Shown here piece by piece: positions 42,463 through 62,127 of a DNA stretch of 64,000 nt. Below the pieces are notes generated by a model. That model made no database searches. It was not told the DNA's origin and saw only the letters and a list, made by a program, of their open reading frames with translations. The translations under genes were made by a program, and so were the position numbers. Every line of letters begins with the position of its first letter. The first letter of the stretch is position 1. Location: assembly GCF_918378365.1 (NCBI RefSeq), contig NZ_OU912926.1, positions 3,162,001-3,226,000 of the forward strand, read 5' to 3'. This DNA is from Candidatus Nitrotoga arctica. Its GTDB lineage: Bacteria; Pseudomonadota; Gammaproteobacteria; Burkholderiales; Gallionellaceae.

Positions 42463-42981
42463 ATGCGTTTAAACAACACTGAGTTCGCCCACTTAATTAA
42501 GTTTTTGTTGGTTTCCACAATTTCTTTTTTCTTCGGTGCAATGCATGGCATGTTGCAAGTGATTCCGTCAATACGAGCTTGGCTGGATTCTATCGGCAGC
42601 CCTTACGGTGGCCCTGGGCACATGATAGATCCCTTGGCACATGCACACATAAACTTAATCGGAGGGCTAGTGATATTGGCAATGGGAACCATGTATTATT
42701 TGCTCCCCATTATTAGCGGAAAAGCAATTTACTCTATACGTTTGATAAACCATTCGTTTTGGTGGACAACTATCGGAGTATTTTATTTTTACACTACGCA
42801 AGTAGTATTTGGCATCCTGGAAGGAAATTTATTACTAGAAAATAACCTGCAAGCTATGGCACAAGTACACCGCTTTTATGGACCCATCGTAGCCAGTTCA
42901 GGAATGATCATGGCGACAGGTTTTTGCATCTATCTTGCTAATGTCTTACTCACACTTAAAAATAACGACCGGAATCCTTAA
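42463..42981 (+). CDS. Four-helix mini heme-copper-oxidase subunit I homologue (copy A)
   Basis: A 172-residue membrane protein with four helices that aligns only with the last third (helices IX-XII) of the CcoN-type subunit at 53.7-55.1 kb. Seen directly: HAHINLIG with His60 and His62, equal to the H-x-H pair that binds hemes b3 and b in oxidases, then YYLLP, YSIRL (90-94) and a following FWW. The helix II heme ligand, copper ligands and cross-linked Tyr of a full subunit are absent. It therefore cannot be a classical oxidase by itself; a heme-b-binding electron-transfer or sensor subunit is an inference. No clear ribosome site is seen. It converges on the YtkA-like gene. Confidence 0.8.
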   Translation: MRLNNTEFAHLIKFLLVSTISFFFGAMHGMLQVIPSIRAWLDSIGSPYGGPGHMIDPLAHAHINLIGGLVILAMGTMYYLLPIISGKAIYSIRLINHSFWWTTIGVFYFYTTQVVFGILEGNLLLENNLQAMAQVHRFYGPIVASSGMIMATGFCIYLANVLLTLKNNDRNP

Positions 42982-42994
42982 AAACTATTTATTG

Positions 42995-43423
42995 CTAAGG
43001 CGATAAGTTCAGCGGGAAGCGCAGAACTCCTTCAGCGCCGTTGCGTTTTATTTGCACCTGTAACACGGACCTGGTGCCTAGGGTAACTTTAGCCGCCCTG
43101 CGGTAAACACCTACTTCCCCATCTTGTATTGCTTGTATCCATTGATCTTGGTCGTCAGTGCGCACCGAAACCATAATGTCATGGACTGGTCCACGTTCAC
43201 CAGTCACTATCACCAAAAACTCGTTTATTCCAGGACGCGGTGGACTGGGCCTTGATTCAACTCGTACCTCCGCACCCTGCCATTTTTGCGGTTGCGTATC
43301 AGCAACTTGGTCTCTGCCACATGCGGTTAGCAGCACCAAAAAAAACAACTTAATATATTTTACATATGTACTCCGCAGTCGGCTAACGGGGGTATGCGAA
43401 TTATTTTTCTGCATTGAGCTCAT
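42995..43423 (-). CDS. YtkA/FixH-like periplasmic lipoprotein
   Basis: About 142 residues from the ATG at 43423 (43414 is an alternative). A basic start and hydrophobic segment end in a lipobox LLTAC, giving a lipid-anchored periplasmic protein. The mature part (EVRVESRPSPPRPGINEFLV... then MVSVRTDDQDQWI) has the beta-sandwich look of YtkA/FixH domains, which often accompany cbb3 oxidase and copper-handling genes. Its 5' end overlaps the 3' end of the next gene upstream by about 20 bp. It is last in the operon that starts at 47.8 kb. The domain call is by resemblance only. Confidence 0.65.
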   Translation of the reverse strand: MSSMQKNNSHTPVSRLRSTYVKYIKLFFLVLLTACGRDQVADTQPQKWQGAEVRVESRPSPPRPGINEFLVIVTGERGPVHDIMVSVRTDDQDQWIQAIQDGEVGVYRRAAKVTLGTRSVLQVQIKRNGAEGVLRFPLNLSP

Positions 43424-43832
43424 GGGATTGTTCTTTATTATTTTTATCTGAATCCAGCTTGCCACCCATAGACGATCCATATAGATTTACCATGAAACGA
43501 ACAAATGCACTTCCGGCAGCAACATAAAATAAAGCGATGATAAACCCCCAGTCCACCCAAGGGCGCTCATCACCCGGTCGGAGACCCCAAAATGGGAAAC
43601 TCAAACCCACCGCAACCAGTAACACCGCAACAGTCACTCCTACAAACCAATAAGGTATCTTTTTTTGCGATTCAGGGATGGTTTCTACCAATTCCCAATC
43701 TTCAAGCCCACGTTTGGCCATACGTTCTTCATCAGAAGCATACCCAAAATGGTCATCCGGCTTCTCACCCCAGCGCGGCTCATCTACTTGCGATAAACCT
43801 CGATCTTTTTCACCCATATCGCTGGCGATCAT
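43401..43832 (-). CDS. Two-helix membrane protein of the oxidase region (short paralogue)
   Basis: A 143-residue protein with a hydrophilic acidic N-terminal part (about 60 residues), two membrane helices (about 62-82 and 92-112) and a charged tail. The segment LLVAVGLSFPFWGLRPGDE, followed by WVDWGFIIALFY, is closely matched by TAFLTTFPLWGQRP and WWDKGYLIDLFY in the 221-residue protein of the core oxidase operon; the two are paralogues, the other carrying a long loop between the helices. Function unknown. It overlaps ccoG by 4 bp. Confidence 0.7.
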   Translation of the reverse strand: MIASDMGEKDRGLSQVDEPRWGEKPDDHFGYASDEERMAKRGLEDWELVETIPESQKKIPYWFVGVTVAVLLVAVGLSFPFWGLRPGDERPWVDWGFIIALFYVAAGSAFVRFMVNLYGSSMGGKLDSDKNNKEQSHELNAEK

Positions 43833-45169
43833 AGCTTTCTCCTTTGTTCGGAAAAATGTTGAACAGGGAATCGGCCCATCCAGGTATCACCTGCAGAAAC
43901 TTCAACTACAACAGAATGTAAGCCTCGTGGCAAATCTTGCGCGATGGAAAGAATAAGCGATTCTCGCCCGACTGGTGGTAATTTAACGTTCTCAGCGCTG
44001 AGCCGATAACTGTCCGGCGGCAAGCCTAACACACGTACGTGTAGCTCCGCTGAGTGATACAGTTTGTTGGAAAGCGCAATGCGATATTCTTGAACCGTAC
44101 GACCTTGCTGGATATCCGCATTGCCCACTACTACATGATAAGGTTGATATGACCATAATCCCCAAATAAACATCACCGCACCCAATACCACGAAGGGGGA
44201 CGTCCAGCCCATTCGGGCAAACAAAGAAATTGCGACGCCACGAAATTTATTTACACTTTTATTCGTGCGTTCAAGCATATCAAAACGTAATAACCCAGGA
44301 ACTCCTTGTTTATTATGCAAGCGATTACAAGCATCAACGCAATCGCCACAATTGATACAACTGTCATAAATATCAGTTTTGCGCGGATCCAGATCGATAA
44401 AACAAGAAGTGACACAATAATTACATTTGGCGCATTCATCGCTGCGGCTGGCATCGTATGCTATATGCAAAGTCTGCTTGGTTTTAAACGAATGCATCCA
44501 AACTCTGTAAATACAGGCGTAGCGGCACCAGAAATGTCTTATTAACGCAATATCTATGAAAACGATCACGACACATACCGCATAAATCCAATGCAACGAT
44601 CCCGCTAGCTGGGTATTTTCTTGCAGTGTTACGAAAGACCACACCACACTTGGCTGATAGAAATAAAATAATGGGATTAGCGCAAAAAACATAGCCGCCC
44701 CAAAAAATGCAACGCCGAGCAACATCCAATTCATGATCTTATTCTTGGCACCCGCCACGCGCGGCGCTTCGCCAGTTAAGCTTACCTCGGCATGCTTACC
44801 TAATAGTTTGTGCGTAAGATTGTTAGCCCACTCGGCCATACTATTTTGAGGACAAACCCAACCGCAAAACACAGTACCTGCAGTCGAGTACAGTAACACC
44901 AAACTACTCGCCAAAAAAAGCCATGCCCCGGTTACCAAGGAAAAATCAGCCAGCCAGATTTGCCTATCAAGCACAACAAAAGCGGCCGCACCCGGATCAA
45001 TCCGGAATAGGCCGCTAGCCGGAATTAGTACAACAAGTACCAGTACCAGCATCTGCACTAACCGCCGCTTCCAACGGAATTCGGAATGAGTTGGCTTGGA
45101 ACCTACGACCGTGCCGATAACCTTGACCGGGATACTGGAAATGGATTTATACTTGACGCCGCTGGCCAT
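43829..45169 (-). CDS. ccoG: CcoG (FixG/RdxA) cbb3-oxidase accessory iron-sulfur protein
   Basis: A 446-residue membrane protein: five or so helices, membrane-embedded CGWVCPQN (102-109), the CRYACIYRVWMHSF segment, two ferredoxin motifs CAKCNYCVTSC (246-256) and CINCGDCVDAC (271-281), and a periplasmic Ig-like C-terminal domain. CcoG reduces Cu(II) for delivery to the cbb3 oxidase copper site. Its presence supports the idea that the heme-copper proteins nearby contain CuB. It lies 7 bp after the spermidine-synthase-like gene. Confidence 0.92.
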   Translation of the reverse strand: MASGVKYKSISSIPVKVIGTVVGSKPTHSEFRWKRRLVQMLVLVLVVLIPASGLFRIDPGAAAFVVLDRQIWLADFSLVTGAWLFLASSLVLLYSTAGTVFCGWVCPQNSMAEWANNLTHKLLGKHAEVSLTGEAPRVAGAKNKIMNWMLLGVAFFGAAMFFALIPLFYFYQPSVVWSFVTLQENTQLAGSLHWIYAVCVVIVFIDIALIRHFWCRYACIYRVWMHSFKTKQTLHIAYDASRSDECAKCNYCVTSCFIDLDPRKTDIYDSCINCGDCVDACNRLHNKQGVPGLLRFDMLERTNKSVNKFRGVAISLFARMGWTSPFVVLGAVMFIWGLWSYQPYHVVVGNADIQQGRTVQEYRIALSNKLYHSAELHVRVLGLPPDSYRLSAENVKLPPVGRESLILSIAQDLPRGLHSVVVEVSAGDTWMGRFPVQHFSEQRRKL

Positions 45170-45176
45170 AATTCAA

Positions 45177-47792
45177 TTAATTCCCTGTCGTATTTGCTTC
45201 ACGGTCAAGCGGGCTCAGCTCCAGCAAGTGCGCACGACTCAATTCCGCGTGTGCATCACCCGCATTCCGCTCAATTCGCCACAATGCACGCACCGCTTCT
45301 ACGTGATATGGATTAAGACGCAAAATTTTCTGCAACGCCTCTTTCTCACTCAATCCATGCTCGCGCGCCTGTGCTAAAGATGAAAACATATTATCAGCCA
45401 ACGCATAAGCAATCCAGCGATCTTTTGCATTCGCCTTATAAGCCAGATGCGTCAGCTGGTTAGCCTGTTGCGTTGCGCCACGCGCAGCCGCAAGCCAGCT
45501 TCGCGTCATCAGCTCGCTGGCTACGTAAGCGCGTTCGAAAGCCTCTTTATCGTGGTCACGAATGCCAAGCAAATTTGCAGCAGCTTCCATTTTCGGCCTG
45601 GTTTTAAGCAAAATCTGTAATAATTTTGCCACATCTAATTCACCAGCGTAGCGCGCGCGTGGCAGACGAAATTCAATCACTGGCGACCACTCATCTTGCA
45701 CTTGTTCCTGACTAACCGGCAGTGGCCCCCAATAGCGTCCGAGCCAAGTCCACCCCCCTTCGCCAGCAGTCGCCTCATCCTGTTGCCCCAAGGACAAACG
45801 CTGCAAATTATGCAGCAACCCCTGCGCCCCCATAAACTTCTGCTGTGGACCGACCAAGGCTAGATGCATTCCATCGAGAAATATTTGCGCATCTGGAAAA
45901 ACCCGTCGAAAGCTATTAAAAATTACGTTCAAAGATTTGTTGTCAAATTGATTGAGTGCCAACCACTGAACAAATAGTCCATTTTCGCTTAAGCGATTAC
46001 GCACGCGCTGAAATTGCTGGACTGATAATAAAGAACTTGAACCTGCCAAATCCGGATGAAACACGTCGCCGATTATGACGTCGTATTGATCCCGACTCGC
46101 GCTTAAAAAATGCCGTACGTCGTCACGTTCCACTTTAGTTTGACGCAACACGTTGCGATTTAATGGGGCGAACCAACTCACTGCGGATTCAATCGCACCC
46201 TGTGATAGTTCAACAGCACTACGCTTTAAATTTGGAAACGCTAGCGAACCAGCCACAGAAATTCCAGTACCTAGCCCGAGAAATAGCACCGAACGAGGCT
46301 GTTCATGCAACAGTAACGGAAGACGCGCTTGATTGGACTGCACGAATACCGCCGTAGGATCAGTTGAAGCATCCATTCTTTGTAAGTCAGTCAACAATAC
46401 ACGCTGCCCGTCTTGTTGCTCCACCACATGAGTCATCGAAATGGCGTCTTCGTAAAAATATAAATCTCTGCTTCCCGCTTGCGCCTGCGGCAATAACATA
46501 TTAACTGGCGGTAACTTTACAACTGGCCATGCTGCCATTAAAAAAACTGGTACGGCAAGCCATGCGATACGCGACTGCGCCCAAGTTAAACCCACAATCA
46601 ACAATACCGAAGCTGCCACCGCCACCGTAGCAGCGCTGCCCCAAAGCGGAATCAATACCACCCCTGCAACTACCGCGCCGAACGCGGCACCCAATGAATT
46701 AGCTCCATACAACCATACCCCACCGCCATTCGAGCGGCCATTTAACAAAGGCAGCCAAGCTCCAAGTGCCACGGTAACTGGCAGAGTTACCAGCATGAGT
46801 AATAACCCCTGCATTCTCAATGCTTCAAATAAAGAAGCAAACTCAGCTCGCTCCACCCATGCCGAAAGTGCAGGTAACAACCACAAACTCAATACGGTAA
46901 ATCCTCCGGCAGCAATGGGCAAGATTACAAACCATACTTGCCTGTGCTGGCGTGGCACGATCAAGCTGCCGCTACCAATGCCCAACAGAAATGACGCCAA
47001 AATCACTGCCAGCACGTACTCGGTGCGTAGCATCACCATGCCGAACAGGCGCGTCCAAGCTATTTGCAAGATCAGACTTGCCGCACCGATTGCGGCATAG
47101 GCGAACAGAAAAGTTAGACGTGGTCGACTTGCCCTAACACTTCTCTCGGTAACCTGCACTGTGGTGTACCGCGATGAAAGCAGCAACAGCGCAACAGCTC
47201 CCAAACACCCAATCGCGGCAACCACTCTGACTGCCCAGACCCAGCCCAAAGCAGGCAGCAACCAAAGTGGTAACAGTGCGCCGCAAGCAGCACCTAGGGT
47301 ATTTAAACCATAAATCTTCCCCAGTCGCTCTGGCCTATTTCCCAATGATGCTAAAATCAATGGAAACCCTGCTCCCATAATAAAAGCTGGGAACAGCAAC
47401 AAACACAATGCAACACTAGCAATAAGGCCATACCATTGAAATAACGAAAATTGAGCAGCCGCGCCTTCCATTCCCACCGATGTCATTTGCAGAATCAGGG
47501 GCAAGAGTAAGGCGTAAACAGCAATACCCCCTTCCAATACAGCAAGCAACAACAACGGTCTTTTGATTTGGGAAGCCCGGTGTACCGCAAATAAACTTCC
47601 CGCTCCCAACCCTCCCATAAATGCGGCGACAGTCAGTACCACCGCAAAAATACTCACACCGAATTGCAAAGAAAGTATGCGCGCCCACAATACTTCGTAT
47701 GCCACGCTAGTCATACCAAATAACCCATACAGCGCTGCCAGTGGCCAATAATTACGCTTTGGGATTAATGATTGTGACTCTTTCACCAGCAT
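45177..47792 (-). CDS. Membrane-fused spermidine synthase-like protein
   Basis: An 871-residue fusion. Residues from about 15 to 430 form many membrane helices of the kind found in the membrane-bound spermidine-synthase-like family. A soluble domain follows with the SAM-type glycine loop FLGLGTGISVAGS, VELSQGAIE and the IGDVFHPDLAG active-site segment; a helical repeat-like C-terminus ends the protein (EKEALQKILRLNPYHVEAVRAL). Known relatives have not been given a clear substrate; some sit beside respiratory genes. Polyamine synthesis is only one option. It is first in an operon with ccoG. Confidence 0.8.
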   Translation of the reverse strand: MLVKESQSLIPKRNYWPLAALYGLFGMTSVAYEVLWARILSLQFGVSIFAVVLTVAAFMGGLGAGSLFAVHRASQIKRPLLLLAVLEGGIAVYALLLPLILQMTSVGMEGAAAQFSLFQWYGLIASVALCLLLFPAFIMGAGFPLILASLGNRPERLGKIYGLNTLGAACGALLPLWLLPALGWVWAVRVVAAIGCLGAVALLLLSSRYTTVQVTERSVRASRPRLTFLFAYAAIGAASLILQIAWTRLFGMVMLRTEYVLAVILASFLLGIGSGSLIVPRQHRQVWFVILPIAAGGFTVLSLWLLPALSAWVERAEFASLFEALRMQGLLLMLVTLPVTVALGAWLPLLNGRSNGGGVWLYGANSLGAAFGAVVAGVVLIPLWGSAATVAVAASVLLIVGLTWAQSRIAWLAVPVFLMAAWPVVKLPPVNMLLPQAQAGSRDLYFYEDAISMTHVVEQQDGQRVLLTDLQRMDASTDPTAVFVQSNQARLPLLLHEQPRSVLFLGLGTGISVAGSLAFPNLKRSAVELSQGAIESAVSWFAPLNRNVLRQTKVERDDVRHFLSASRDQYDVIIGDVFHPDLAGSSSLLSVQQFQRVRNRLSENGLFVQWLALNQFDNKSLNVIFNSFRRVFPDAQIFLDGMHLALVGPQQKFMGAQGLLHNLQRLSLGQQDEATAGEGGWTWLGRYWGPLPVSQEQVQDEWSPVIEFRLPRARYAGELDVAKLLQILLKTRPKMEAAANLLGIRDHDKEAFERAYVASELMTRSWLAAARGATQQANQLTHLAYKANAKDRWIAYALADNMFSSLAQAREHGLSEKEALQKILRLNPYHVEAVRALWRIERNAGDAHAELSRAHLLELSPLDREANTTGN

Positions 47793-48460: not shown

Positions 48461-48847
48461 TCAGAAGGGATAAAACCAAATAACGCCGACAATTGCGTGT
48501 ACAAAAGCCAGTGTAATAGTAAGCCCGGCAGAAATCATATGTAGCACGAATACTTGCTTACCATATATCCCCATAGCAATGCCCAGCGCGCCAGTAATTA
48601 GGAGCAAAATTAACAATGGCACACCCAACAAAAACATCGTCAAATGTTTTTTTTGGATGGTTGAGGGCCTATCTGTTTTAATCTGGCTGGCTTGCTGTTC
48701 AAACGCCTCCATCACCTTAGAACTATCGCCTTTTTGATCGTTATCTTCAGCTCGCGCGTTTGGTAGAGCAAGCATCAAAAATAACACCGCTGTAATCAGC
48801 CAACATGCTAATAGACATGGATAAGAGCTACCCTTTGCACTCGCCAT
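48461..48847 (-). CDS. Signal-peptide membrane protein with conserved-looking histidines
   Basis: A 128-residue protein: a signal sequence ending in ARA (about residue 33), an acidic linker, then two membrane helices (about 70-95 and 98-125). His residues occur at the start of the first helix (KKHLTM), at the start of the second (FVLHMIS) and inside it (AFVHAIVG). Paired membrane histidines could hold a b-type heme, but no family is recognised. Last gene of the core oxidase operon; the upstream stop overlaps its ATG by one base. Confidence 0.6.
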   Translation of the reverse strand: MASAKGSSYPCLLACWLITAVLFLMLALPNARAEDNDQKGDSSKVMEAFEQQASQIKTDRPSTIQKKHLTMFLLGVPLLILLLITGALGIAMGIYGKQVFVLHMISAGLTITLAFVHAIVGVIWFYPF

Positions 48848-49101
48848 TATTTATCACTCTCGACTGAAACTGCCTGCTGCTCTTTCGGATCGGTTTTGCT
48901 TTCCGCGTAATGCCATGTCAACACCGCAATCAGAATAAAAGGAACAAAAAGAATACCCAGCAGAAATAAAAAAATAAACCAGAGCGTATCAATATGCACA
49001 TGAAGAAAACGGTAGCTATCCACTGCATAGCTCATTTTTACCGAAGACAATGTGAGACCAAGAACCATTCCTAGGCGCCACAAAATTTTGAGCACTCTCA
49101 C
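48847..49101 (-). CDS. Small exported single-helix protein
   Basis: An 84-residue protein with a signal-like N-terminus (to about SYA, residue 26), a short HVH-containing stretch (FLHVHIDTLW), one strong membrane helix (about 39-63) and a charged cytoplasmic-type tail. It overlaps the SUMF1-like gene by 4 bp and the 128-residue gene by one. No family recognised; context says accessory to the oxidase. Confidence 0.6.
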   Translation of the reverse strand: MRVLKILWRLGMVLGLTLSSVKMSYAVDSYRFLHVHIDTLWFIFLFLLGILFVPFILIAVLTWHYAESKTDPKEQQAVSVESDK

Positions 49102-50162
49102 CCTTTTTTATCCTTTACCTCGAGATTACTCGCACAGCGAAATCCAAAAAAATCAGAAGCATAGTTTGCAAAAGCGAAATTTCGATGGAATACTGCGGAG
49201 GAGAATGGGTCCCCCTTCCATGAGCCACCACGCAATACTTTATAGCTTCCCCCAGTCGGCACAACGTCAACCTCTTTTTTATTTGTCGCCCGCACGACTT
49301 TTCCTTTAAACAAATCCGACGGCGCGTCAGATCCAGGATAGGGTGCAAAATCATCCGCTGTCCACTCATTTACGTTACCCGCCATATCCATTATTCCATA
49401 TGGACTAACTCCATTGAGATAAGCATTCACGTTGGTTGTCGAACCTACATTGTAATAAGTATTTAACCGCTCCGGTTCCATTTTGTTACCCCACGGCCAC
49501 CGCCGACCATCCGTTCCACGCCCAGACTTTTCCCATTCCGCTTCAGAAGGAAGCCGCTTGCCTGCCCACTTCGCGTACGCTGTTGCATCATACCAAGACA
49601 CCATAGTAACTGGGCGCAACATTTCGCCTTGAGGAATTTTTCCTTTTTTCCAGTTTAGCGGCGGACGGTGTGAAGTAGCGACTACAAATTTGGCATATTG
49701 TGCATTAGTTACAGGGTATTTATCTATCCAGAAGGCAGGTAATTTAACTGTATGCTGCGGACGATTTTGTACATCTGCACGTTCTAAATCTGTACCCATC
49801 GAAAAAGCTCCCTCAGGGATTAATACCATACTATCTACTTCCAGCCACTCTTCTTTGGAGAGCAAACTTTCAATTTCTATCGCACTATATCCTACCGTAT
49901 GATTTTTATCGGCCTCATGCACACTATGCAATACTAAATCTTCACCAGCAGCGCGTATGTGGGATGATTCATCTTTCAATTCGTAAGTTGCACGCGTGCG
50001 CATTTCACCCATACGTTCGAACCCCTGATTTACCACATACAGGGTAATTCCAATTGCTAACAAGACGAAGCAAATTACAAAAGTAGCCGATAAGTAACGT
50101 TTACGACGTGCATAATCTACAGCAGGAAGTACAGTTTTTCTGTTTGCAGAAGTAACCGCCAT
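49098..50162 (-). CDS. Membrane-anchored formylglycine-generating-enzyme-like (SUMF1/NirV-type) protein without catalytic cysteines
   Basis: A 354-residue protein: a membrane helix at 24-44, then a periplasmic FGE-sulfatase domain from about 112 (MVLIPEGAFSMGTDLERAD, WIDKYPVTNAQY, LPSEAEWEKSGRG, AGNVNEW at 261-267, RGGSW at 311-315, GFRCA at 340-344). The active-site cysteine pair of true FGE lies just after GGSW; here this stretch is WKGDPFSSAVFHRN, and the only cysteines are 31 and 343. So sulfatase activation is unlikely. Related non-FGE proteins such as NirV accompany copper nitrite reductases. A structural or maturation role in the oxidase is inferred from the operon. Confidence 0.85.
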   Translation of the reverse strand: MAVTSANRKTVLPAVDYARRKRYLSATFVICFVLLAIGITLYVVNQGFERMGEMRTRATYELKDESSHIRAAGEDLVLHSVHEADKNHTVGYSAIEIESLLSKEEWLEVDSMVLIPEGAFSMGTDLERADVQNRPQHTVKLPAFWIDKYPVTNAQYAKFVVATSHRPPLNWKKGKIPQGEMLRPVTMVSWYDATAYAKWAGKRLPSEAEWEKSGRGTDGRRWPWGNKMEPERLNTYYNVGSTTNVNAYLNGVSPYGIMDMAGNVNEWTADDFAPYPGSDAPSDLFKGKVVRATNKKEVDVVPTGGSYKVLRGGSWKGDPFSSAVFHRNFAFANYASDFFGFRCASNLEVKDKKG

Positions 50163-50633
50163 CTAAATATCACTTTCTTTGTTGTCGGAACGTTGCTTAT
50201 ATAAAAGAACTCGCGGACTTCGTCCGTAAGTGCCTTTTACCATAATTTCACCCATGACCCCACCGAATGCTGCCGCGGTCATAACGACAGTTACAAACAA
50301 ACCCCACAGGCCAAAAGGAATTAGCGATGCATCTTCCGGAACTGTATTGAAATAAATACTTTCCACGTAACTAATCGATTTAACTATTAACGGAGGGAAG
50401 TAACACAACCATTTGCCGCCAAGTCCAAAAATAACAGCAACCAATACGCCGACAAAAAAAGGTAACACCAGCATATCTATGACCCACAGCCCATTAAAGT
50501 CAAGAATGCCGCGAAATAACTCGATTTTTACTCCAAGTAAGCGGTCGCCGAAGTAATTCAGCGCACAACCCATGATAACTGCCACGACCCCGCTGAAAAA
50601 TCTGGCTTTGGTCAAAGGCGGCAGTCTACTCAT
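50163..50633 (-). CDS. Unassigned four-helix membrane protein of the oxidase operon
   Basis: A 156-residue protein with about four hydrophobic segments (12-30, 48-72, 75-90 and 105-128). A periplasmic-looking loop (VESIYFNTVPEDASLIPFG) precedes the last helix, and the C-terminal tail is basic. No family motif is recognised. It overlaps the cytochrome gene before it by 4 bp, so it is translated with it. Confidence 0.6.
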   Translation of the reverse strand: MSRLPPLTKARFFSGVVAVIMGCALNYFGDRLLGVKIELFRGILDFNGLWVIDMLVLPFFVGVLVAVIFGLGGKWLCYFPPLIVKSISYVESIYFNTVPEDASLIPFGLWGLFVTVVMTAAAFGGVMGEIMVKGTYGRSPRVLLYKQRSDNKESDI

Positions 50634-51118
50634 GGACGATATTCTTGACCTGTAAGTATTTCATGTTCGGCTTTACGTGTTTCTTCGAGATACCAATCTT
50701 GCACCTTCAGGTTTGCCATATAGCGCGCCAAAAGTCGTCGTTCACTTTCCGACAGTTGCACATAAGATGGCATTTGATATTCCCTCTTCAAACGGGATGG
50801 CAATATTGCCTGAGGATTTATGGCTGAAAAATACTGGTAAAACCAGTCTTCGCTACGCAAAGAACCGATACCATCCAATATTGGGGCCGGGACGGCTTTC
50901 ATAAGATCACGCACCGTCCACAATGAATGGCAGCTTTTACAATTTTGCTGGCGATAAATATCCATAGCAGCGCGTTCGAGAGTAGCTGATGCAGTGCTGT
51001 AATAGGGAATACCTTTATCGACTTCCTGAATAGTATTGAGACGCCATAGATTACGTCCCATAAAACCTACAACAACAATCGCAATTACTATAAAAACAAT
51101 TTTTTCGCCTAGTTTCAT
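50630..51118 (-). CDS. Membrane-anchored monoheme cytochrome c (first copy)
   Basis: A 162-residue protein with an uncleaved N-terminal anchor (about 6-24), one heme site CKSCH (60-64) and a likely axial Met116 (REYQMPSY). It has the build of NorC/CcoO-type anchored cytochromes. It is a paralogue of the 198-residue cytochrome at 62.1-62.7 kb: both begin MKLGEK (at residue 1 or 6) and share LDGIGS-R after the heme. It probably feeds electrons to the catalytic subunit. Confidence 0.85.
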   Translation of the reverse strand: MKLGEKIVFIVIAIVVVGFMGRNLWRLNTIQEVDKGIPYYSTASATLERAAMDIYRQQNCKSCHSLWTVRDLMKAVPAPILDGIGSLRSEDWFYQYFSAINPQAILPSRLKREYQMPSYVQLSESERRLLARYMANLKVQDWYLEETRKAEHEILTGQEYRP

Positions 51119-51123
51119 TGGTC

Positions 51124-51393
51124 CTATTGCTTTTCTTTTTCCTGACGCTTTAATACACGTTCCCGGCTTTGCATCTGTGTGGCATTTACCTCGCGACTTT
51201 TTGCATATTCTTGAGGTGACATTTTTTCTTTATCACCTTCATCAAATACTAAATACTTGATGTCTTCATCGAATTGCTCATTCTTCACCCCCCACCTAAT
51301 CCAATAAATGACAGCAATAATAATCAATCCGCCAACAATAAGCCAAAGGTAAATAGACCATCCATCATCCATTGATTGCAAGTAGTTTTCCAT
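51124..51393 (-). CDS. CcoS-like small membrane protein
   Basis: An 89-residue protein with a short periplasmic start, one helix (about 14-33) and then RWGVKNEQFDEDIKYLVFDE, which matches the CcoS pattern of a helix followed by W-x-V-x-x-x-Q-F-D-D and I-L-x-D-D. CcoS is needed for cofactor insertion into cbb3 oxidase. The charged 40-residue tail is longer than in ordinary CcoS. Homology is judged by eye from a short motif. Confidence 0.65.
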   Translation of the reverse strand: MENYLQSMDDGWSIYLWLIVGGLIIIAVIYWIRWGVKNEQFDEDIKYLVFDEGDKEKMSPQEYAKSREVNATQMQSRERVLKRQEKEKQ

Positions 51394-51436
51394 ATTTCCT
51401 CCATCGATCGTTAGGTAGCTCCCCTAATGAGTTAGT

Positions 51437-51757
51437 CTAATAAAGATATCCGCCTAGCATTTGTAGCCCACCAAAAATGACTGCAACTATGATGCCTAAA
51501 ATTATTAATGCAAACATCACTTTCTCCCCAGATCTCATCGTTTTTGGTGCATGATTGCCGAACATAACCATATAAACAATGCCAGAAAATACTAAAACTC
51601 CCAACAGCATAAAAAAAAACACACCCGCGCTAAATTGTTGGCTGCGCATACCTTCTATGCTTAAATCTAATTTAGGTGAATACGCTGTATTAGCTAATAT
51701 ATGTAACACACTGTCTAAATTTAATCTTTCAAGAAATGAATAAATAATTGTCTCCAC
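51437..51757 (-). CDS. Unassigned two-helix protein of the oxidase operon
   Basis: A 106-residue protein with two membrane helices (about 47-66 and 80-102) and a hydrophilic loop (FGNHAPKTMRSGEK). The N-terminal 40 residues are amphipathic. The first helix begins after FSAGVFFFMLLGVLVFSG. I do not recognise a family. It lies just after an intra-operon terminator, so its expression may be lower than that of the genes before it. Confidence 0.6.
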   Translation of the reverse strand: METIIYSFLERLNLDSVLHILANTAYSPKLDLSIEGMRSQQFSAGVFFFMLLGVLVFSGIVYMVMFGNHAPKTMRSGEKVMFALIILGIIVAVIFGGLQMLGGYLY

Positions 51758-51778
51758 TCATTCCGAATGAATCTCTAT

Positions 51779-51809
51779 AAAAAGATTATGCCGCCTATAC
51801 GGCGGCATA
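51779..51809 (-). terminator. Intra-operon intrinsic terminator/attenuator
   Basis: On the minus strand TATGCCGCC (51809-51801), a five-base loop and GGCGGCATA (51795-51787) form a perfect 9-bp stem, followed by ATCTTTTTAT. It is placed 30 bp after the 44-codon gene and 22 bp before the 106-codon gene. It would favour the first six genes (catalytic subunit, CcoO-like and small proteins) over the later accessory genes. Confidence 0.75.
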
Positions 51810-51839
51810 CCTTATTCATTTAGCTTTCTAGCCGAAATA

Positions 51840-51974
51840 TTAACTCTTATTCGATCTTATTTGAGGACTTTTCTTATCATAATCGTCCACAAAGAAGCTA
51901 TAAAAAAATGGAGCAAATGTTGCAAATGCAATTACTGCCGCGAATACGGTAGGTGCATAGTCATAATCTATCAT
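51840..51974 (-). CDS. 44-residue single-helix membrane microprotein
   Basis: A 44-codon gene with a strong AGGAGG ribosome site. It encodes an acidic aromatic start (MIDYDYAPT), one membrane helix (VFAAVIAFATFAPFFYSFF) and a charged tail (VDDYDKKSPQIR). Size and place in the operon resemble CcoQ of classical cbb3 operons, although CcoQ sequence similarity is not evident. Confidence 0.75.
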   Translation of the reverse strand: MIDYDYAPTVFAAVIAFATFAPFFYSFFVDDYDKKSPQIRSNKS

Positions 51975-52004
51975 AATAGTGCCTCCTGTAATATCATTTA
52001 AAAA

Positions 52005-52670
52005 CTAAACGTTATGTCGTCTGTCACCGTGACGTTGATCATGATCGTGATGACGAGGCTGCCAGGTATATGGAGGCAACCGCTTCACAGTAACTGTTAC
52101 GCCAACAAAGAACATCGTAAGATAAAATAGGTCAATTAAATATCCTTTATCCCACCAAGGCTGTTGACGCTCTCGTTTACCATTAGCACGATAATTACCT
52201 TCAAAATTAGCGATTTTTACCTCTGGACCAACAACAGTGTAATCCTTAAGATCTACATCTGGAATCTTCATTATTTCTTCGATTTGTGGTTTGAGAACAC
52301 GTAAATCACTCATAGTCACCGGATGTCGATCCTGCTGACCTTTCAATGGACTGTCTTTATTAATCTCAATAATACGTTTCATTGCTGCATCATCGCCTTG
52401 AGCTTCTTGTATCGACTGGATTTCCGGATTATCCATAACTTTAATAAAGTCAGCATAGATCGCAGCTGTGGGACGCTGTCCCCAAAGCGGGAAAGTAGTC
52501 AAAAATGCCGTTACGACAGTTAACATAACAAGAATAACAACAGGCACCGGTAACCGATTGTTATCCTCTGTCATACCACCAAGATCTTCAGCTTCCCAAA
52601 GTGCTTTACTTCGTTCTACAGTATTATCAACTGACAAACTAACCAGTGGAGCATTAAAAACCCAAGTCAT
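52005..52670 (-). CDS. Two-helix membrane protein with long periplasmic loop (long paralogue)
   Basis: A 221-residue protein: about 40 hydrophilic residues, a helix (about 42-60) ending in TTFPLWGQRP, a 110-residue periplasmic-type loop rich in charged residues and Ile/Pro, a second helix after WWDKGYLIDLFY, and a His-rich tail (HHDHDQRHGDRRH). Both helices and the WGxRP turn match the 143-residue protein beside ccoG. The His-rich end could bind metal. No known family. Confidence 0.7.
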   Translation of the reverse strand: MTWVFNAPLVSLSVDNTVERSKALWEAEDLGGMTEDNNRLPVPVVILVMLTVVTAFLTTFPLWGQRPTAAIYADFIKVMDNPEIQSIQEAQGDDAAMKRIIEINKDSPLKGQQDRHPVTMSDLRVLKPQIEEIMKIPDVDLKDYTVVGPEVKIANFEGNYRANGKRERQQPWWDKGYLIDLFYLTMFFVGVTVTVKRLPPYTWQPRHHDHDQRHGDRRHNV

Positions 52671-52687
52671 TTCATGTCCCCCTTAAA

Positions 52688-53650
52688 TTATTTCAGATTT
52701 ATAACAAAATCAATCAAGTTTCGAATTTCGCTATCTTTAGCGTACATAGGCACATCTGGGGGAGTAGTGATTTTTCCTTCCCGATATTCGTCGTACTCAG
52801 AACGCCATTTATTGTAATCAATTTTTTTGCCATTTACGTCCACCTCACCCCATAAATAATCAAAACGGGGCATAATAGAATGGGGTTGTACTAAACGCGG
52901 ATTAAAGAAATGCAGCATCATCCACTCTCTAGACGAATTGCGCGATCCTACGTGCAACAAATCTGGTCCTTTGCGGTCAGATCCAAATGCTGTTGGAGAT
53001 TCCCCATTAAAGTCACCCAGCATCGGGGGAGCACCAAACACCTGCCAATCTTGCGTTTGTTCAGGCAACAATGTATGACACCACCAACAACCCTCACGTA
53101 CAAACATGGTTTTTCCAGATCCGGCATGTAAAATATCTGCATCCGCAGCAAGTTTTAAAACCTCGTCTGGAGTCCAGCCTTTCGTGGCAGTCGCATTTTC
53201 TATATATGAAAGTGGTTTACCCTCAAAAGTCTGCAATTCATCACTTTTCTTAATTAGGAATACGGCGCCGCTTTCTTTTTTTGCTTCATTTACGCGACCT
53301 TGCTTGACACTAAGCTCTTCTACCCCTTTACCCAAATTAGCCGTATGCGTCACTCCATTGGGCAATGACGTGCCTGCAGGATATACATAAGCATATACTG
53401 GCTCCATTGACTCACCGCTTTTCGGATCTTTTCTGACCAGCACTTTCAATGGCTTATTCAAGCCCTTCAGCACTGGATCTGCAAGTTGCCACCCCGAATC
53501 CCATCCTGAAGTTAATTGCTTATCCAAACCAACCTCGGAGACCACTGAAGCCGCAAGATCAAAACTTGGAAAAAACAAAGTTATACTCATTGACAATCCG
53601 AATGCCATCCCAAACGCTCTGGAACCGATTCTATACTCTCTAAAATTCAT
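52688..53650 (-). CDS. ccoO: Enlarged CcoO-like monoheme cytochrome c subunit
   Basis: A 320-residue protein. Residues from about 183 match the CcoO heme domain: FVREGCWWCH (heme at 188-192), GSDRKGPDL (223-231), SSREWMMLHFFNPR and axial Met260 in HSIMPRF. Classical CcoO is near 200 residues; here about 150 residues of unassigned periplasmic sequence lie between the N-terminal hydrophobic segment (about 12-33) and the heme domain. It is 36 bp after the ccoN-like gene, as in cco operons. Confidence 0.85.
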   Translation of the reverse strand: MNFREYRIGSRAFGMAFGLSMSITLFFPSFDLAASVVSEVGLDKQLTSGWDSGWQLADPVLKGLNKPLKVLVRKDPKSGESMEPVYAYVYPAGTSLPNGVTHTANLGKGVEELSVKQGRVNEAKKESGAVFLIKKSDELQTFEGKPLSYIENATATKGWTPDEVLKLAADADILHAGSGKTMFVREGCWWCHTLLPEQTQDWQVFGAPPMLGDFNGESPTAFGSDRKGPDLLHVGSRNSSREWMMLHFFNPRLVQPHSIMPRFDYLWGEVDVNGKKIDYNKWRSEYDEYREGKITTPPDVPMYAKDSEIRNLIDFVINLK

Positions 53651-53686
53651 AATTTTCTCCCCAGATTCTGTCTTAAAGTTATAGGT

Positions 53687-55096
53687 TTAACGTTCGTACG
53701 CCAATTCGTGTGGCATGCGTCCGGCCGGAATAACAGTACCTTCACGCGCAGTCATCCACATGTTGTATAACCAAATGAGGGTCGAAGAAAATACCATGGT
53801 ACCACCTAACCAACGAGCGATCATATAGGGATGCTCGGCAATCACGACATCAATGTATGGCACTTCATAAATTTTACCAGCGCCTTGAATTAAACCAGCA
53901 ATCGTCATTGATATCCAATAGGTACTAAATCCAATCAATAATAACCAGAAATGCAAGTTACCTAGCGTCAGCGAGTACAACTTACGCTTCATCAACGTTT
54001 GCAAACCCAAGTAAACAGCTGCAGCCTCAAGGAATGTCGAAAATCCTAACAAAGCAAGATGTGCGTGTGCCACCATCCAACCAGTACCATGAATGTACCA
54101 ATTGATCGAGCGTGTTTGTTGGAAACCGCCCTGCATATTAAGCGGAATCGCCAATAATACGCCCACCACGGTAAAACGCACTTCGATGTTTTCAACAAAC
54201 ATATTCCATTTACCCTGCATGGTCAAAAGTATATTTGACACGAATGCAATCGCTGGCACCAAAATCAAAACCCCTTCCACCGAAGCAAAAGACTTTAGCC
54301 ATTCAGGTAAGGGGGCAGACATCAAATGATGCGCGGCCGGGGTGGAATAAAACACAACTATGGACCAAAAATGCAAGTGGCCTATACGATGCGAATACAA
54401 TGGATTGCCGGTCACTTTTGGAATAACGTAATAGGCAATCGCTGCAGCAACGGGAGTAATCCACAATCCCAGAATGTTATGCGCAAACCACCACGTCATG
54501 TAAGCTTCGGTTAAGCCCGTAAGATGGAAATACTCTGGCAGATTACCAACCAAAAATACGATAAACAACATAAAAGTTGATGCTGCAAAAAACCAGTTTG
54601 TCGTATAAATACCTTGGGTACGGCGCTTTATTATGGTCATCCATACATTAGTCGCCAAAGGAATAGTTACAAAAGCAGCGATACCCAAATCTATTGGCCA
54701 TGGGAAATCAGAATATTCGCGTCCCGAGGTTACTCCCATCCATAATAGAGATAGACCCGTAGCCAATGCAATATTCCACATCATACAGTTCCACAAGCCA
54801 AGCTTTTCTGACCAGAGCTTTGTATTCCCCAGTATCGGGGTGATATACATCATGGCCATTGCAAATGCCATCGAAATCCAGCCAAAAATCACTGCCAACA
54901 CGTGCACTTGACGCATATGGCCAAAAGCAAACATTTCCGTCCCAGTTACAAAATCAGGGAACGCAAGCTTAGCCGCATTAAATGACCCCAATCCAGTCCC
55001 GATTACGAACCATAAAATGGAAGAAAACCCGAAGAAAATCGCCGCCGAACCGACCGGGATAGCCTCATTTTTAGCAAACAAATACTTAAGAATCAT
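53687..55096 (-). CDS. ccoN: Divergent cbb3-type heme-copper oxidase catalytic subunit (CcoN-like)
   Basis: A 469-residue protein with about twelve helices. All cofactor ligands can be placed: His65 (helix II) and His346 for low-spin heme b, His344 for heme b3, His206, His256 and His257 for CuB, and Tyr250 six residues before the His pair, as the cross-linked Tyr of cbb3 oxidases. The Glu residues that ligate FeB in NorB are absent from the WWFAHNILG helix. So it should reduce oxygen, not NO, but it is far from standard CcoN in sequence. AGGAGA precedes the ATG. Confidence 0.88.
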   Translation of the reverse strand: MILKYLFAKNEAIPVGSAAIFFGFSSILWFVIGTGLGSFNAAKLAFPDFVTGTEMFAFGHMRQVHVLAVIFGWISMAFAMAMMYITPILGNTKLWSEKLGLWNCMMWNIALATGLSLLWMGVTSGREYSDFPWPIDLGIAAFVTIPLATNVWMTIIKRRTQGIYTTNWFFAASTFMLFIVFLVGNLPEYFHLTGLTEAYMTWWFAHNILGLWITPVAAAIAYYVIPKVTGNPLYSHRIGHLHFWSIVVFYSTPAAHHLMSAPLPEWLKSFASVEGVLILVPAIAFVSNILLTMQGKWNMFVENIEVRFTVVGVLLAIPLNMQGGFQQTRSINWYIHGTGWMVAHAHLALLGFSTFLEAAAVYLGLQTLMKRKLYSLTLGNLHFWLLLIGFSTYWISMTIAGLIQGAGKIYEVPYIDVVIAEHPYMIARWLGGTMVFSSTLIWLYNMWMTAREGTVIPAGRMPHELAYER

Positions 55097-55173
55097 GCTG
55101 CATCTCCTTTTTTAGCTCTAGCAGACTCAATGGCTGCTGCACTTAGTGTTATTTTCACTATAATTTCAACAAT

Positions 55174-55374
55174 TTATTTTTTTGACGTTTTATGCGGCGC
55201 TATCGAAGCTATCTCTTCAGAAATTATTTCGCCCACAGTACCTCCCACCGTGTCCCCCAGAACGTCCCCCCCCGGCAAATGAATACGTTTATGCGGCATT
55301 AATACGTACCACGATAACCACATACTCGAAAATGCCAAGAGCATACAGCACACCCCCGCTATTAGTACAAGCAT
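55174..55374 (-). CDS. Small single-helix protein of the oxidase operon
   Basis: A 66-residue protein: one N-terminal helix (about 2-26, LVLIAGVCCMLLAFSSMWLSW) then a basic turn (MPHKRIHLPGGDVLG) and an acidic tail with EIISEEIASIAPHK. AAGGAGGGG precedes its ATG. Unrecognised. It is between the first gene of the operon and the catalytic subunit. Confidence 0.6.
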   Translation of the reverse strand: MLVLIAGVCCMLLAFSSMWLSWYVLMPHKRIHLPGGDVLGDTVGGTVGEIISEEIASIAPHKTSKK

Positions 55375-55438
55375 ATTCCCCTCCTTATTTAAGGTCGTCA
55401 GTTTTTAAAACAATTGTTTTACGCAAGCGAGCACCGAT

Positions 55439-55720
55439 CTAAGCATGACGGGAATTTTCAATCGTATCGTGACGCTTTAAAGCAAGTGCCAACATTAAAG
55501 AAAACGCAAGGCCAAATGCAAACATACAGAAACTCATAAAACCATTAAATGTTGTAGGTATATATGAACCAGCACCTACTCCACCCCAATCTGTGAATCC
55601 TCCACGCCCCATCCAGCACATAAGGGCAGCTCCGAACACACTACCATTACCCATGCCCGTCACAAATCCCGCAACTATAATAATCCAAAAGGATCTAGAT
55701 GGTATTGACTTTGCCTGCAT
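55439..55720 (-). CDS. Small two-helix protein, first gene of the oxidase operon
   Basis: A 93-residue protein with two membrane segments (about 11-35 and 60-82), joined by a Gly-rich loop (MGRGGFTDWGGVGAGSYIP). A GGAGGAAA ribosome site precedes the ATG. No family is recognised. It leads the operon, about 170 bp downstream of a good promoter. Confidence 0.6.
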   Translation of the reverse strand: MQAKSIPSRSFWIIIVAGFVTGMGNGSVFGAALMCWMGRGGFTDWGGVGAGSYIPTTFNGFMSFCMFAFGLAFSLMLALALKRHDTIENSRHA

Positions 55721-60589: not shown

Positions 60590-61072
60590 TTATTTTTTAA
60601 TTGAGAAAAAATCCGACGAGCTACTAACTAATTTAAGCATTTCCTGAATTGCTTGGTAATCTTTTAAACTGGAAAACTGTCCTTTATGAAATACAAATTG
60701 CAAGCGCTGGTCTGATTTATTCAGACCAGCCAGACCGAACGAACGACCTGAGTAATCTGCGTATATTCGCAAATCTTTCACCAACTCCACTTGCTCTCCA
60801 TTGCGAAAAATAATTCGAGTTACCTGCTTACCTATTTCAATTGCGATAGGCGCAGCAGGCAGTAACATTAACCGGGTTTTCAATATGCGGTTGGCACCAG
60901 CAATAAAAAAGAAACTGGCCAGAAACGAAAACAAATATGCCAAACTGACATCTCCGCCATACCAAAATTTAAGTACCATTGACAGTAAAGCCACCACTGT
61001 AGGAACATACAGCAGTAAATCCCACATCATGCCTTTGCGGTCTTGAACTAAATTGAAACGCGTATCACTCAT
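60590..61072 (-). CDS. Unassigned membrane protein with cytoplasmic domain
   Basis: A 160-residue protein: two helices close to the N-terminus (about 17-36 and 43-60) and a soluble beta-rich domain of about 90 residues (IEIGKQVTRIIFRNGEQVEL, then LQFVFHKGQFSS). It resembles small membrane proteins with a PH-like domain, but I cannot name the family. It follows the thioredoxin-like gene by 6 bp and ends the third oxidase gene set. Confidence 0.6.
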   Translation of the reverse strand: MSDTRFNLVQDRKGMMWDLLLYVPTVVALLSMVLKFWYGGDVSLAYLFSFLASFFFIAGANRILKTRLMLLPAAPIAIEIGKQVTRIIFRNGEQVELVKDLRIYADYSGRSFGLAGLNKSDQRLQFVFHKGQFSSLKDYQAIQEMLKLVSSSSDFFSIKK

Positions 61073-61078
61073 GCTAGA

Positions 61079-61633
61079 TCAACCCGCGTGACTTTCTGTT
61101 CCCGCCTTGAGAATCCTTTTAATTCCCGCTTCCATTTCGCCATGCAACATGCGTCCTGGCTGAACTCCGCTAACAAAACCTTTATCATCTATAAAGAAAG
61201 TCCAGGGATCACCCATCACACGATATGCCTTGAATGCTTGCGGATTTTGGTATTGATCCATGTGCAAAAAAAGCACCTGGGTTTGATATTTTTCCAAGAG
61301 CGCTTTCATTATTTGCAACTGGCCATCACACACGGTGCAATGGCCAGGTGTGGCAAACTCCAAGACGATAGGTTTATTAAGCGCTAATGCTTTATCCAAA
61401 GAGTATTGGTACATGCGTGCATCTGGCTGACGATATGTTGTCATTTTACTCATGTCCCCGCCGACATCTGCCAATGTTTTGGTGGGCAAACTAGGTGCTA
61501 GCATACCTTTCTGCAACATTCCCATTGAAGCCCCCCCCATGCTCCATGCGGAAAACTGTTCGCCGCAACCACAAACCAGGCAGGAAACAACGAGCAGCCA
61601 TATTATTCTTATTTTCACTTGGGCCGGTTCCAT
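61079..61633 (-). CDS. Thioredoxin-like lipoprotein with CxxC
   Basis: A 184-residue protein: signal with a lipobox VCGC (Cys23), a linker, and a thioredoxin fold containing FATPGHCTVCDGQ (Cys99, Cys102), then LFLHMDQYQNP and the cis-Pro segment GDPWTFFIDDKG. It would act in the periplasm, lipid-anchored, as a thiol reductase for cytochrome c or copper-site assembly. Its start overlaps the mini-oxidase gene (copy B) by 19 bp. Confidence 0.8.
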   Translation of the reverse strand: MEPAQVKIRIIWLLVVSCLVCGCGEQFSAWSMGGASMGMLQKGMLAPSLPTKTLADVGGDMSKMTTYRQPDARMYQYSLDKALALNKPIVLEFATPGHCTVCDGQLQIMKALLEKYQTQVLFLHMDQYQNPQAFKAYRVMGDPWTFFIDDKGFVSGVQPGRMLHGEMEAGIKRILKAGTESHAG

Positions 61634-62127
61634 CCATTACAAGTACGGTATATATTATATCCCCAAATAATGTTAGCCAGTAAAACCACACTACCAAAAA
61701 TTCCTGCGAGTGACATAAAACGTGATGCCACCGACTCTCCGTCGTCATCAATAAAAATACCAATCAGCCCCGCAGAACTGAAGAAAACCACGACCCCCAG
61801 CAGGCCAAGATTATGCATCCAGAAATGGATCTTGACCAAACGCAGACTGTAGATGGAACGACGCACCAACCGTGGTATAAGATAATATACCGCGCCGAAA
61901 ATAGCCATTTCCACCCATCCCAACAAATTAATATGGGTATGCCCTAAAACGATCCTATGGCCGGGTATCCCGCTATTAACAAAGTGCCTAAAGGTGGGAA
62001 TCCCGCCCATCAACGCCCCCCAGGAAAAACCAATTATGCTGTAAATAATACATGCATAAATAAACCACAATGTATATTTGGTATATTCTTTATCCTGAGT
62101 CCAAGGCTCATTTGGTTCCTGCATCAT
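61615..62127 (-). CDS. Four-helix mini heme-copper-oxidase subunit I homologue (copy B)
   Basis: A 170-residue protein with four helices, paralogous to the 42.5-kb protein and to helices IX-XII of the CcoN-like subunit. His63 and His65 in LGHTHINLLGW form the H-x-H heme ligand pair; YYLIP, YSLRL (93-97), HFW (101-103) and AGLIGIF follow at the same spacing as in the full subunit (HAHLALLG, YSLTL, HFW, AGLIQG). It overlaps the cytochrome c gene by 20 bp and the thioredoxin-like gene by 19 bp, so the three should be made together. Function unknown; heme b binding is inferred. Confidence 0.8.
   Translation of the reverse strand: MMQEPNEPWTQDKEYTKYTLWFIYACIIYSIIGFSWGALMGGIPTFRHFVNSGIPGHRIVLGHTHINLLGWVEMAIFGAVYYLIPRLVRRSIYSLRLVKIHFWMHNLGLLGVVVFFSSAGLIGIFIDDDGESVASRFMSLAGIFGSVVLLANIIWGYNIYRTCNGWNRPK

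Follow-up and report, generated by a model that had tools for sequence, protein, structure and literature searches.

The 64,000-nucleotide stretch of DNA analysed here (the window) spans bases 3162001-3226000 of the one-contig genome of Candidatus Nitrotoga arctica (3,301,051 bases, 99.64% complete), a nitrite oxidizer of the Gallionellaceae (PMC6050957, PMC10734462; all papers given by PMC number are cited from excerpts of their text). Between positions 48461 and 55720 its minus strand carries twelve tightly spaced genes, among them those for a catalytic subunit resembling CcoN of the cbb3 oxidases and for a CcoO-like cytochrome c. A sequence-only reading had taken them as one operon in which CcoP is missing and nine further genes are present. 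The twelve genes stand, and to them we add a thirteenth, p44, which had been overlooked, and a hairpin that splits the set.

Relatives were sought in 84,980 species genomes, which yielded 155, the best 80 of them 81-97% identical. These best 80 and five additionally fetched make up the 85 loci of our tblastn survey (match threshold E 1e-3), to which the counts below refer. Many of the 85 end inside the gene block, and gene order was read for most of them. The features of the set, in the direction of transcription, are as follows.

55439..55720 (-): p93, a 93-amino-acid membrane protein that opens the putative core unit; no Pfam match; tblastn match in 84/85 loci
55174..55374 (-): p66, 66 amino acids, single helix; no Pfam match; tblastn match in 85/85 loci
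53687..55096 (-): CcoN-like catalytic subunit, 469 amino acids; COX1 257.6 bits; ligands in 86/86 sequences; separate clade (97/96)
52688..53650 (-): CcoO-like monoheme cytochrome c with CWWCH; FixO 66 bits; 85/85 loci
52005..52670 (-): p221, 221 amino acids, heme-less and resembling a CcoP anchor; best sub-threshold FixP_N match of the genome; 82/85 loci
51840..51974 (-): p44, a 44-amino-acid single-helix peptide; 65/68 gaps by pattern, 79/85 loci by profile; no Pfam match
51787..51809 (-): hairpin and T run resembling an intrinsic terminator; -19 kcal/mol, z -5.1; 55/65 loci
51437..51757 (-): p106, a two-helix membrane protein that opens the putative second unit; 78/85 loci
51124..51393 (-): p89, CcoS-like, 89 amino acids; FixS 18.4 bits (cut-off 23.1); 78/85 loci
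50630..51118 (-): cytc162, a membrane-anchored monoheme cytochrome c; Cytochrom_C and weak FixO; 83/85 loci
50163..50633 (-): p156, a membrane protein; no Pfam match; 71/85 loci
49098..50162 (-): membrane-anchored protein with an FGE-sulfatase domain; PF03781 190 bits; 72/85 loci
48847..49101 (-): p84, single helix; 70/85 loci
48461..48847 (-): p128, three helices, weakly similar to cytochrome b561 (PF01292 19.6 bits, under cut-off); 67/85 loci

The p44 frame starts with an ATG preceded by AGGAGG and runs for 44 codons between p221 and p106. Its product consists of one helix and a charged tail and appears CcoQ-like in size and position. By pattern search, such a frame is present in 65 of 68 measurable p221-p106 gaps. 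A profile built from those 65 sequences, which hence match by construction, finds p44 in 79 of the 85 loci, including the three gaps missed by the pattern; the other six loci end short of the expected p44 position. The hairpin after p44 (51809-51787) is GC-rich and followed by a T run. A strict hairpin-plus-T rule, applied within 110 bases after p44, picks it out in 55 of 65 loci, against 0-2 of 65 in five shuffles and, behind ten of the set's other genes, 0 to 5 of 66-86. The letters of the stem vary among loci while its position is constant. Because a conserved terminator stands here, the core unit seems to end at the hairpin, with read-through to a second unit possible, and because this terminator-like element splits the set, the genes do not form one plain operon. 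A promoter scan found 14 sites against a shuffle mean of 20.9, that is, fewer than in shuffles, and for this reason a TTGACA-18-TATTAT site at 55918-55889 is a lead only. Rfam, run over the whole window at gathering threshold, returned RNase P alone.

The catalytic subunit and CcoO

Three COX1 matches occur in the genome and only one, the 469-amino-acid protein of the set, is full-length; the two partial matches are small proteins on either side of the oxidase genes. Cytochrome bd subunit I is also encoded (G000:C1:1285324-1286604, minus strand); cydAB has been reported in 15.4% of nitrite oxidizers (PMC10734462, in excerpt). The closest solved structure to the 469-amino-acid protein is the cbb3 CcoN of 3mk7 (E 6.9e-61). 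Our alignment holds 86 rows of the lineage (the window and the 85 loci), 14 canonical CcoN, three divergent cbb3 sequences and three NorB-like ones. His65, His206, Tyr250, His256, His257, His344 and His346 are present in 86 of 86 lineage rows. By comparison with P. stutzeri CcoN, whose residue roles (heme b, CuB, cross-link and heme b3) we in part take as given, they represent both heme b His, the heme b3 His, the three CuB His and the cross-link Tyr. Tyr250 aligns with P. stutzeri Tyr251, the predicted cross-link Tyr on a helix separate from that of its His, again in 86 of 86 rows. The claim of the sequence-only reading that every heme and CuB ligand is retained is thus confirmed, and the oxygen-reducing active site is, as judged from these residues, intact. 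For the CuB residues of P. stutzeri CcoN the numbering is that given in the excerpted text of PMC3578206.

The catalytic subunit falls outside the ordinary CcoN clade. A maximum-likelihood tree with 35 rows unites the 15 lineage rows in one group (support 97/96), whose stem measures 1.8 changes per site, and the 14 canonical CcoN rows group separately (99/100); the tree comes with a long-branch warning, and neither its root nor the branching order of the three cbb3 groups is sure (78/38). An ordinary CcoN served by a CcoP from elsewhere in the genome was dropped on the single full COX1, the lack of a FixP_N match above cut-off and the tree. The phylogeny, proposed by the sequence-only reading as a check on itself, and the genome scan gave neither a placement within ordinary CcoN nor a standard ccoNOQP operon elsewhere, the two findings that together would have refuted that reading.

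At the positions of P. stutzeri 237, 240 and 317, all 86 lineage rows have His, Gly and Ala, whereas all 14 canonical rows have Tyr, Ser and Tyr; the three divergent cbb3 rows read Y/Y/H, S/S/S and Y/Y/Y. We take P. stutzeri Tyr237, Ser240 and Tyr317 to belong to the K-type proton channel of cbb3 oxidases. With these three replaced (Tyr to His, Ser to Gly and Tyr to Ala), a changed proton path is probable. His236, Gly239, His240 and Ala316 of the CcoN-like subunit are invariant in the 12 lineage sequences compared. The same 12 all have Gln at P. stutzeri position 323, where the 14 canonical rows have Glu or Asp; a Glu at this position presumably lowers the heme b3 potential.

The CcoO-like protein, also claimed from the sequence, was borne out by FixO (66 bits) and by CcoO chains of the PDB (E 1.7e-14). 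It keeps the heme domain and has about 120 additional residues ahead of it. In its predicted structure the additional residues are partly confident and the heme domain itself is poorly modelled; a fold search of this model against the PDB gave no match, which means little given the state of the heme domain. The CcoS-like protein of the earlier claim corresponds to p89 and holds up as well, though its FixS score is below cut-off.

A heme-less candidate for the CcoP anchor

FixP_N, which is Pfam's model for the anchor of CcoP, found nothing above cut-off in the whole genome, and the gene set encodes no di-heme CcoP, while a di-heme CcoP is present in nine of the nine canonical operons inspected (out of the tree's 14 canonical CcoN). 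To this extent CcoP is missing, as the sequence-only reading had it. Yet the top FixP_N match of the genome, a weak one (13.5 bits, E 0.24), lies in the p221 gene, and p221 resembles a CcoP anchor without heme. The protein has no heme motif; its first helix is FixP_N-like and carries E35-x-N37-N38, and beyond an additional region there is a second helix. FixP_N matches 28 of the 34 p221 homologs at E<=1, with 7.5e-5 as the best value, and every other family listed for the 34 has one member each. Aligned by hhalign to nine CcoP sequences, p221 reaches a probability of 61, its N-terminal part alone 41, against 0.9 or less for p106, p156, p128, p84, p93 and p89 and 9 for p143. For the heme proteins the scores against full CcoP are 26-84; these come about through the heme domains of CcoP, so the heme proteins do not serve as controls. 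The nearly invariant E35-x-N37-N38 is similar to the acidic residue that precedes NN, TN or VN in the canonical CcoP sequences compared, a residue that we assume to be the mouth of a proton channel. From its sequence, CcoP looks stripped to a heme-less anchor rather than simply missing, and p221 is the candidate for that anchor.

The occurrence of p221 follows that of the catalytic subunit. In a sample of 398 genomes of the phylum, CcoN of the lineage occurs in 42 and p221 in 43, with both in 40. The exceptions are one genome with a full p221 and no CcoN at E 1e-72 (G187), two with weak partial p221 matches (G267 and G321), and two in which CcoN lies near a contig end and no p221 match was found (G219 and G312). 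Searched against PDB sequences, the p221 profile gave chance-level matches only.

The first helix of p143, a two-helix protein encoded beyond the set, resembles that of p221 (FPFWGLRP and FPLWGQRP) and looks like a paralogue of it. Weak matches of about 50 residues to the p221 profile in a second class of proteobacteria are probably p143.

Distribution, known relatives and proposed function

Of 158 Gallionellaceae genomes, 46 carry CcoN of the lineage at 84% identity or more, namely 15 of the 19 from the Nitrotoga genus and 31 of the remaining 139, and at least 16 of the 46 also carry a canonical CcoN. Among the Nitrotoga-genus genomes, three (G004, G011 and G016) have no CcoN match even at E 0.001, and a fourth (G010) has a canonical copy only, on an 8.8-kb contig. 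G016 is 97% complete yet has no match to the lineage CcoN. In the phylum sample, the 42 genomes with the lineage CcoN (at least 69% identity, our own included) leave out a 43rd match at 33% (G419); the other 41 belong to families f57, f77 and f90, outside the order of the window, and are probably Zetaproteobacteria. The best 80 of the 155 relatives include Nitrotoga, Gallionella, Sideroxydans, Ferrovum, and gammaproteobacterial and unspecified proteobacterial metagenome-assembled genomes (MAGs); nine of the CcoN relatives are 95-97% identical, eight from Ca. Nitrotoga and one from a Gallionellales bacterium. Two genomes of the second class have a CcoN 78% identical to that of the window, the other proteins measured being 35-64% identical once cross-matches are set aside. 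Spread on known plasmids was rejected as an explanation: 379 plasmid records match, all below 60% identity, and the eight rows listed lie at 32-34%.

The gene-neighbourhood survey, likewise proposed by the sequence-only reading, found the order conserved over the 85 loci, which excludes a chance arrangement. Typically it runs p93, p66, CcoN, CcoO, p221, p106, p89, cytc162, p156, FGE-like, p84, p128, then spermidine-synthase-like, CcoG-like, p143 and p161. Nearby lies a module of cytochrome c4, cytc198, a small COX1-like protein, a thioredoxin-like protein and p160, plus a second small COX1-like protein. The position of this c4 module varies: it stands before the core, inverted before the core (L069 and L083) or after it (L148, a locus that is inverted, with the module divergent). 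In L104 and L109 core and module are kept and none of FGE, p156, p84 and p128 was seen in the fetched stretch, so these four look dispensable there. Some 20 genes, for the most part in the same order, are common to Nitrotoga, Ferrovum, relatives of Gallionella and Sideroxydans, MAGs of gammaproteobacteria and members of a second class (probably Zetaproteobacteria). Other arrangements came to light in passing. One locus (L155, G019:C11) holds a divergent cbb3-like set with a 1034-amino-acid fused protein bearing three heme motifs, and in two (L157 and L162) CcoN-like proteins stand beside monoheme cytochromes with no di-heme CcoP in the stretch viewed.

The lineage fits the "distal" cbb3 of papers on iron oxidizers, a form said to correspond to a subtree of Ducluzeau et al. 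2008; we apply the label through Sideroxydans lithotrophicus ES-1, by elimination. One genome, which we take as ES-1 (G540), has two CcoN at E<=1e-20. One of these is canonical, with CcoP, and the other is a member of the lineage, 86% identical to that of the window and in the same block. In ES-1 the proximal and distal clusters differ in subunits, and expression of the distal one is about three times as high and increases on thiosulfate (PMC8788666, in excerpt). The subunit make-up of our lineage also differs from the proximal type, and between distal cbb3 and the present oxidase there is probably no difference of kind. Excerpts of two further papers report a proximal or distal ccoN in most Gallionellaceae genomes, Nitrotoga included (PMC10734462), and both ccoN forms in Zetaproteobacteria (PMC7029218). 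Thus the sequence-only reading was right in seeing a divergent multi-subunit lineage, outside ordinary CcoN and with its own accessory set, but not in calling it uncharacterised, as it already has a name. Nor is the missing CcoP new: for Ferrovum JA12 the excerpted paper reports CcoN and CcoO, as here, with no subunit III (PMC4725956). Ferrovum myxofaciens P3G carries the same block (L123, 84%); the donor is Fe(II) in Ferrovum and nitrite in Nitrotoga. In Ca. Tenderia electrophaga a Cyc1 region is syntenic with Mariprofundus and complex IV-2 is highly expressed (PMC5371394, in excerpt); compared by description only, complex IV-2 is a highly expressed terminal oxidase outside a ccoNOPQ operon. 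What we add to the named lineage is the shared block of about 20 genes, the CcoP-anchor-like p221, p44, the terminator and the replaced channel residues. For the last four we found no account in the literature searched, which did not extend to subscription journals and supplements.

With canonical ccoNOQP (P. stutzeri, 3mk7) the oxidase shares the fold family, the heme and CuB ligands, the cross-link Tyr and the CcoO heme domain. It differs in a CcoN identity of 28-34%, the lack of a di-heme CcoP, the replaced residues 237, 240, 317 and 323, the extra residues of CcoO and the presence of p44 at the expected place of CcoQ. We think it probable, arguing from sequence, that in this nitrite oxidizer the locus encodes the terminal cytochrome c oxidase, a member of a distal-type cbb3 lineage whose other reports come from iron oxidizers, with CcoN, CcoO, p221 and p44 at its core and a changed proton path. 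The enzyme function as such we assign, on the same grounds, with fair confidence.

We propose a model in which CcoN, CcoO, p221 and p44, probably also p93 and p66, would form the core complex, their genes being transcribed above the rest of the set. The products of p106, p89, cytc162, p156, the FGE-like gene, p84 and p128 would then be peripheral subunits or assembly factors. Electrons would pass from a periplasmic cytochrome c, with the c4/Cyc1 module as a candidate source, via a single monoheme step at CcoO, perhaps after cytc162, and on to heme b and the b3-CuB site, bypassing the di-heme relay of CcoP. Such a single-heme entry would suit high-potential donors, for example nitrite or Fe(II). 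p221 may retain the CcoP-like helix together with the Glu that we presume to lie at the mouth of a proton channel, and protons would probably travel by a changed path through CcoN. It is possible, though we hold it as rather doubtful, that these traits amount to a further architecture of the C family: a CcoP cut to a heme-less anchor supplying acidic proton entry, a CcoQ-like peptide of 44 amino acids, a new proton path in CcoN (His236, Gly239, His240 and Ala316), single-heme entry for high-potential donors, a cassette of about 20 genes carried between iron- and nitrite-oxidizing lineages, and paired single-repeat COX1 proteins as a redox module.

Several observations weigh against our main interpretation. 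Alone, p221 of the window scores 12.1-13.5 bits against FixP_N, where the cut-off is 24.9, and a hidden Markov model of nine canonical CcoP N-termini, run against the window proteins, gives p221 no significant match (E 7.2), placing it behind p143 (E 6.1). The AlphaFold predictions made for p221 and CcoO are weak (the two means of the predicted local distance difference test, pLDDT, are 65.6 and 72.2), and a fold search of the predicted p221 structure against the PDB gave no usable match. The Gln at position 323 had to be dropped as a mark of the lineage, since the three divergent cbb3 rows also have Gln. A literature search for support of the channel residues and of the role of the CcoP Glu found none. 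In addition, Mariprofundus PV-1 is reported to have ccoNOP, CcoP included and CcoQ not (PMC3179512, in excerpt), which counts here if those genes belong to the lineage.

The main competitor to p221 as the remnant of CcoP is cytc162, which would be the true subunit III in place of CcoP, leaving p221 as an unrelated structural protein. It has heme, is matched by tblastn in 83 of 85 loci and by hhalign matches the CcoP heme domain (probability 76); moreover, the authors on Ferrovum JA12 proposed that co-localised cytochromes may substitute for the subunit (PMC4725956, in excerpt). Yet cytc162 is nearer to CcoO (probability 90) than to CcoP, it lies beyond the conserved terminator and so outside the core unit, in L104 and L109 it is on the opposite strand away from the core, and it is p221, not cytc162, that resembles the CcoP anchor. 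We regard this substitution as unlikely while giving it some weight, and the two proposals could hold together. The di-heme cytochrome c4 (Cyc1-like) might instead be the heme half of a split CcoP, with p221 the anchor half. Its heme domains match those of canonical CcoP (53.6 bits; TIGR00782 50.9 bits), it occurs in 65 of 85 loci, and for Mariprofundus it has been suggested that Cyc1 feeds cbb3 (Barco 2015 as cited in PMC5513912, itself seen in excerpt). The match is in swapped order, however, as generic class I cytochromes would give, and the NCBIfam score is below the ccoP cut-off of 179.95; we dropped c4 as a split-off CcoP on the swapped order and consider it quite improbable.

That the enzyme reduces nitric oxide or another diatomic gas, and not oxygen, has in its favour the common fold of NorB and CcoN and a deep clade with unsure root placement. 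The cross-link Tyr, kept throughout the lineage, is missing in all three NorB-like rows, and the protein is the sole full COX1 of the genome, besides cytochrome bd. A nitric oxide reductase was dropped on the cross-link Tyr, and the lineage does not cluster with NorB in the tree; we judge this identity highly improbable. Scarcely any credence is due to the idea that the oxidase is an ordinary cbb3 whose accompanying genes are unrelated passengers. Several genes of the set do lack a known family, and L104 and L109 have the core with no FGE, p156, p84 or p128 in the fetched stretch, but the same succession of genes is seen in beta- and gammaproteobacteria and in one further proteobacterial class. 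Furthermore, the lineage CcoN (E<=1e-72) and p221 were not found in the rest of the 398 sampled genomes, where the other genes were not searched for.

In a broader context, Ca. Nitrotoga has been described with a high-affinity, proton-pumping cbb3 oxidase (PMC6050957, in excerpt). If its sole heme-copper oxidase lacks both the di-heme relay of CcoP and the residues of the customary proton path, neither affinity nor proton yield can be assumed to be the same. The same caution, if true, would extend to the iron oxidizers that share the enzyme, as the high-affinity pump reading rests on canonical cbb3. The gene block is also a candidate genomic marker joining iron and nitrite oxidizers, and the lineage amounts to a natural experiment on which parts of CcoP are important.

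Accessory genes and flanking modules

The oxidase set is flanked by further genes of the block.

62818..63597 (-): di-heme cytochrome c4-like protein (Cyc1-like), candidate electron donor; 65/85 loci
62108..62704 (-): cytc198, membrane-anchored monoheme cytochrome c of the c4 module; 73/85 loci, a count that includes cross-matches to cytc162
61615..62127 (-): the other small COX1-like protein, part of the c4 (Cyc1-like) module; PF00115 53 bits
61079..61633 (-): thioredoxin-like protein of the c4 module; thioredoxin models just below cut-off; 57/85 loci
60590..61072 (-): p160, membrane protein of the c4 module; no Pfam match; 58/85 loci
45177..47792 (-): fused membrane/spermidine-synthase-like protein; MFS_SpdSyn 90 bits; 65/85 loci
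43829..45169 (-): CcoG-like polyferredoxin; TIGR02745 107 bits (cut-off 316.7); 63/85 loci
43401..43832 (-): p143, two helices; 66/85 loci
42995..43480 (-): p161, lipoprotein-like; no Pfam or NCBIfam match; 31/85 loci
42463..42981 (+): small COX1-like protein, helix IX-XII type; PF00115 39 bits

Both small COX1-like proteins hold an H-x-H pair and match helices IX-XII of CcoN and, more weakly, V-VIII (filters off), so that each resembles a single repeat of the heme-copper fold; their locus counts are inflated by cross-matches to CcoN. The spermidine-synthase-like fusion is a large membrane protein that sits between the oxidase genes and the CcoG-like gene. A likeness of p161 to FixH/CcoH, which we had assumed, was supported by no search.

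The FGE-like protein reads RGGSWKGDPFS at the site where, as we understand it, active FGE has a cysteine pair, and with this pair replaced it is likely structural. Among NCBIfam models, EgtB, SenA and GldK come nearest to it, and the respiratory setting is odd for it. Finally, an IS1595/ISXO2-type transposase gene (57454-58407, plus strand) separates the cytochrome c4 module from the oxidase core.

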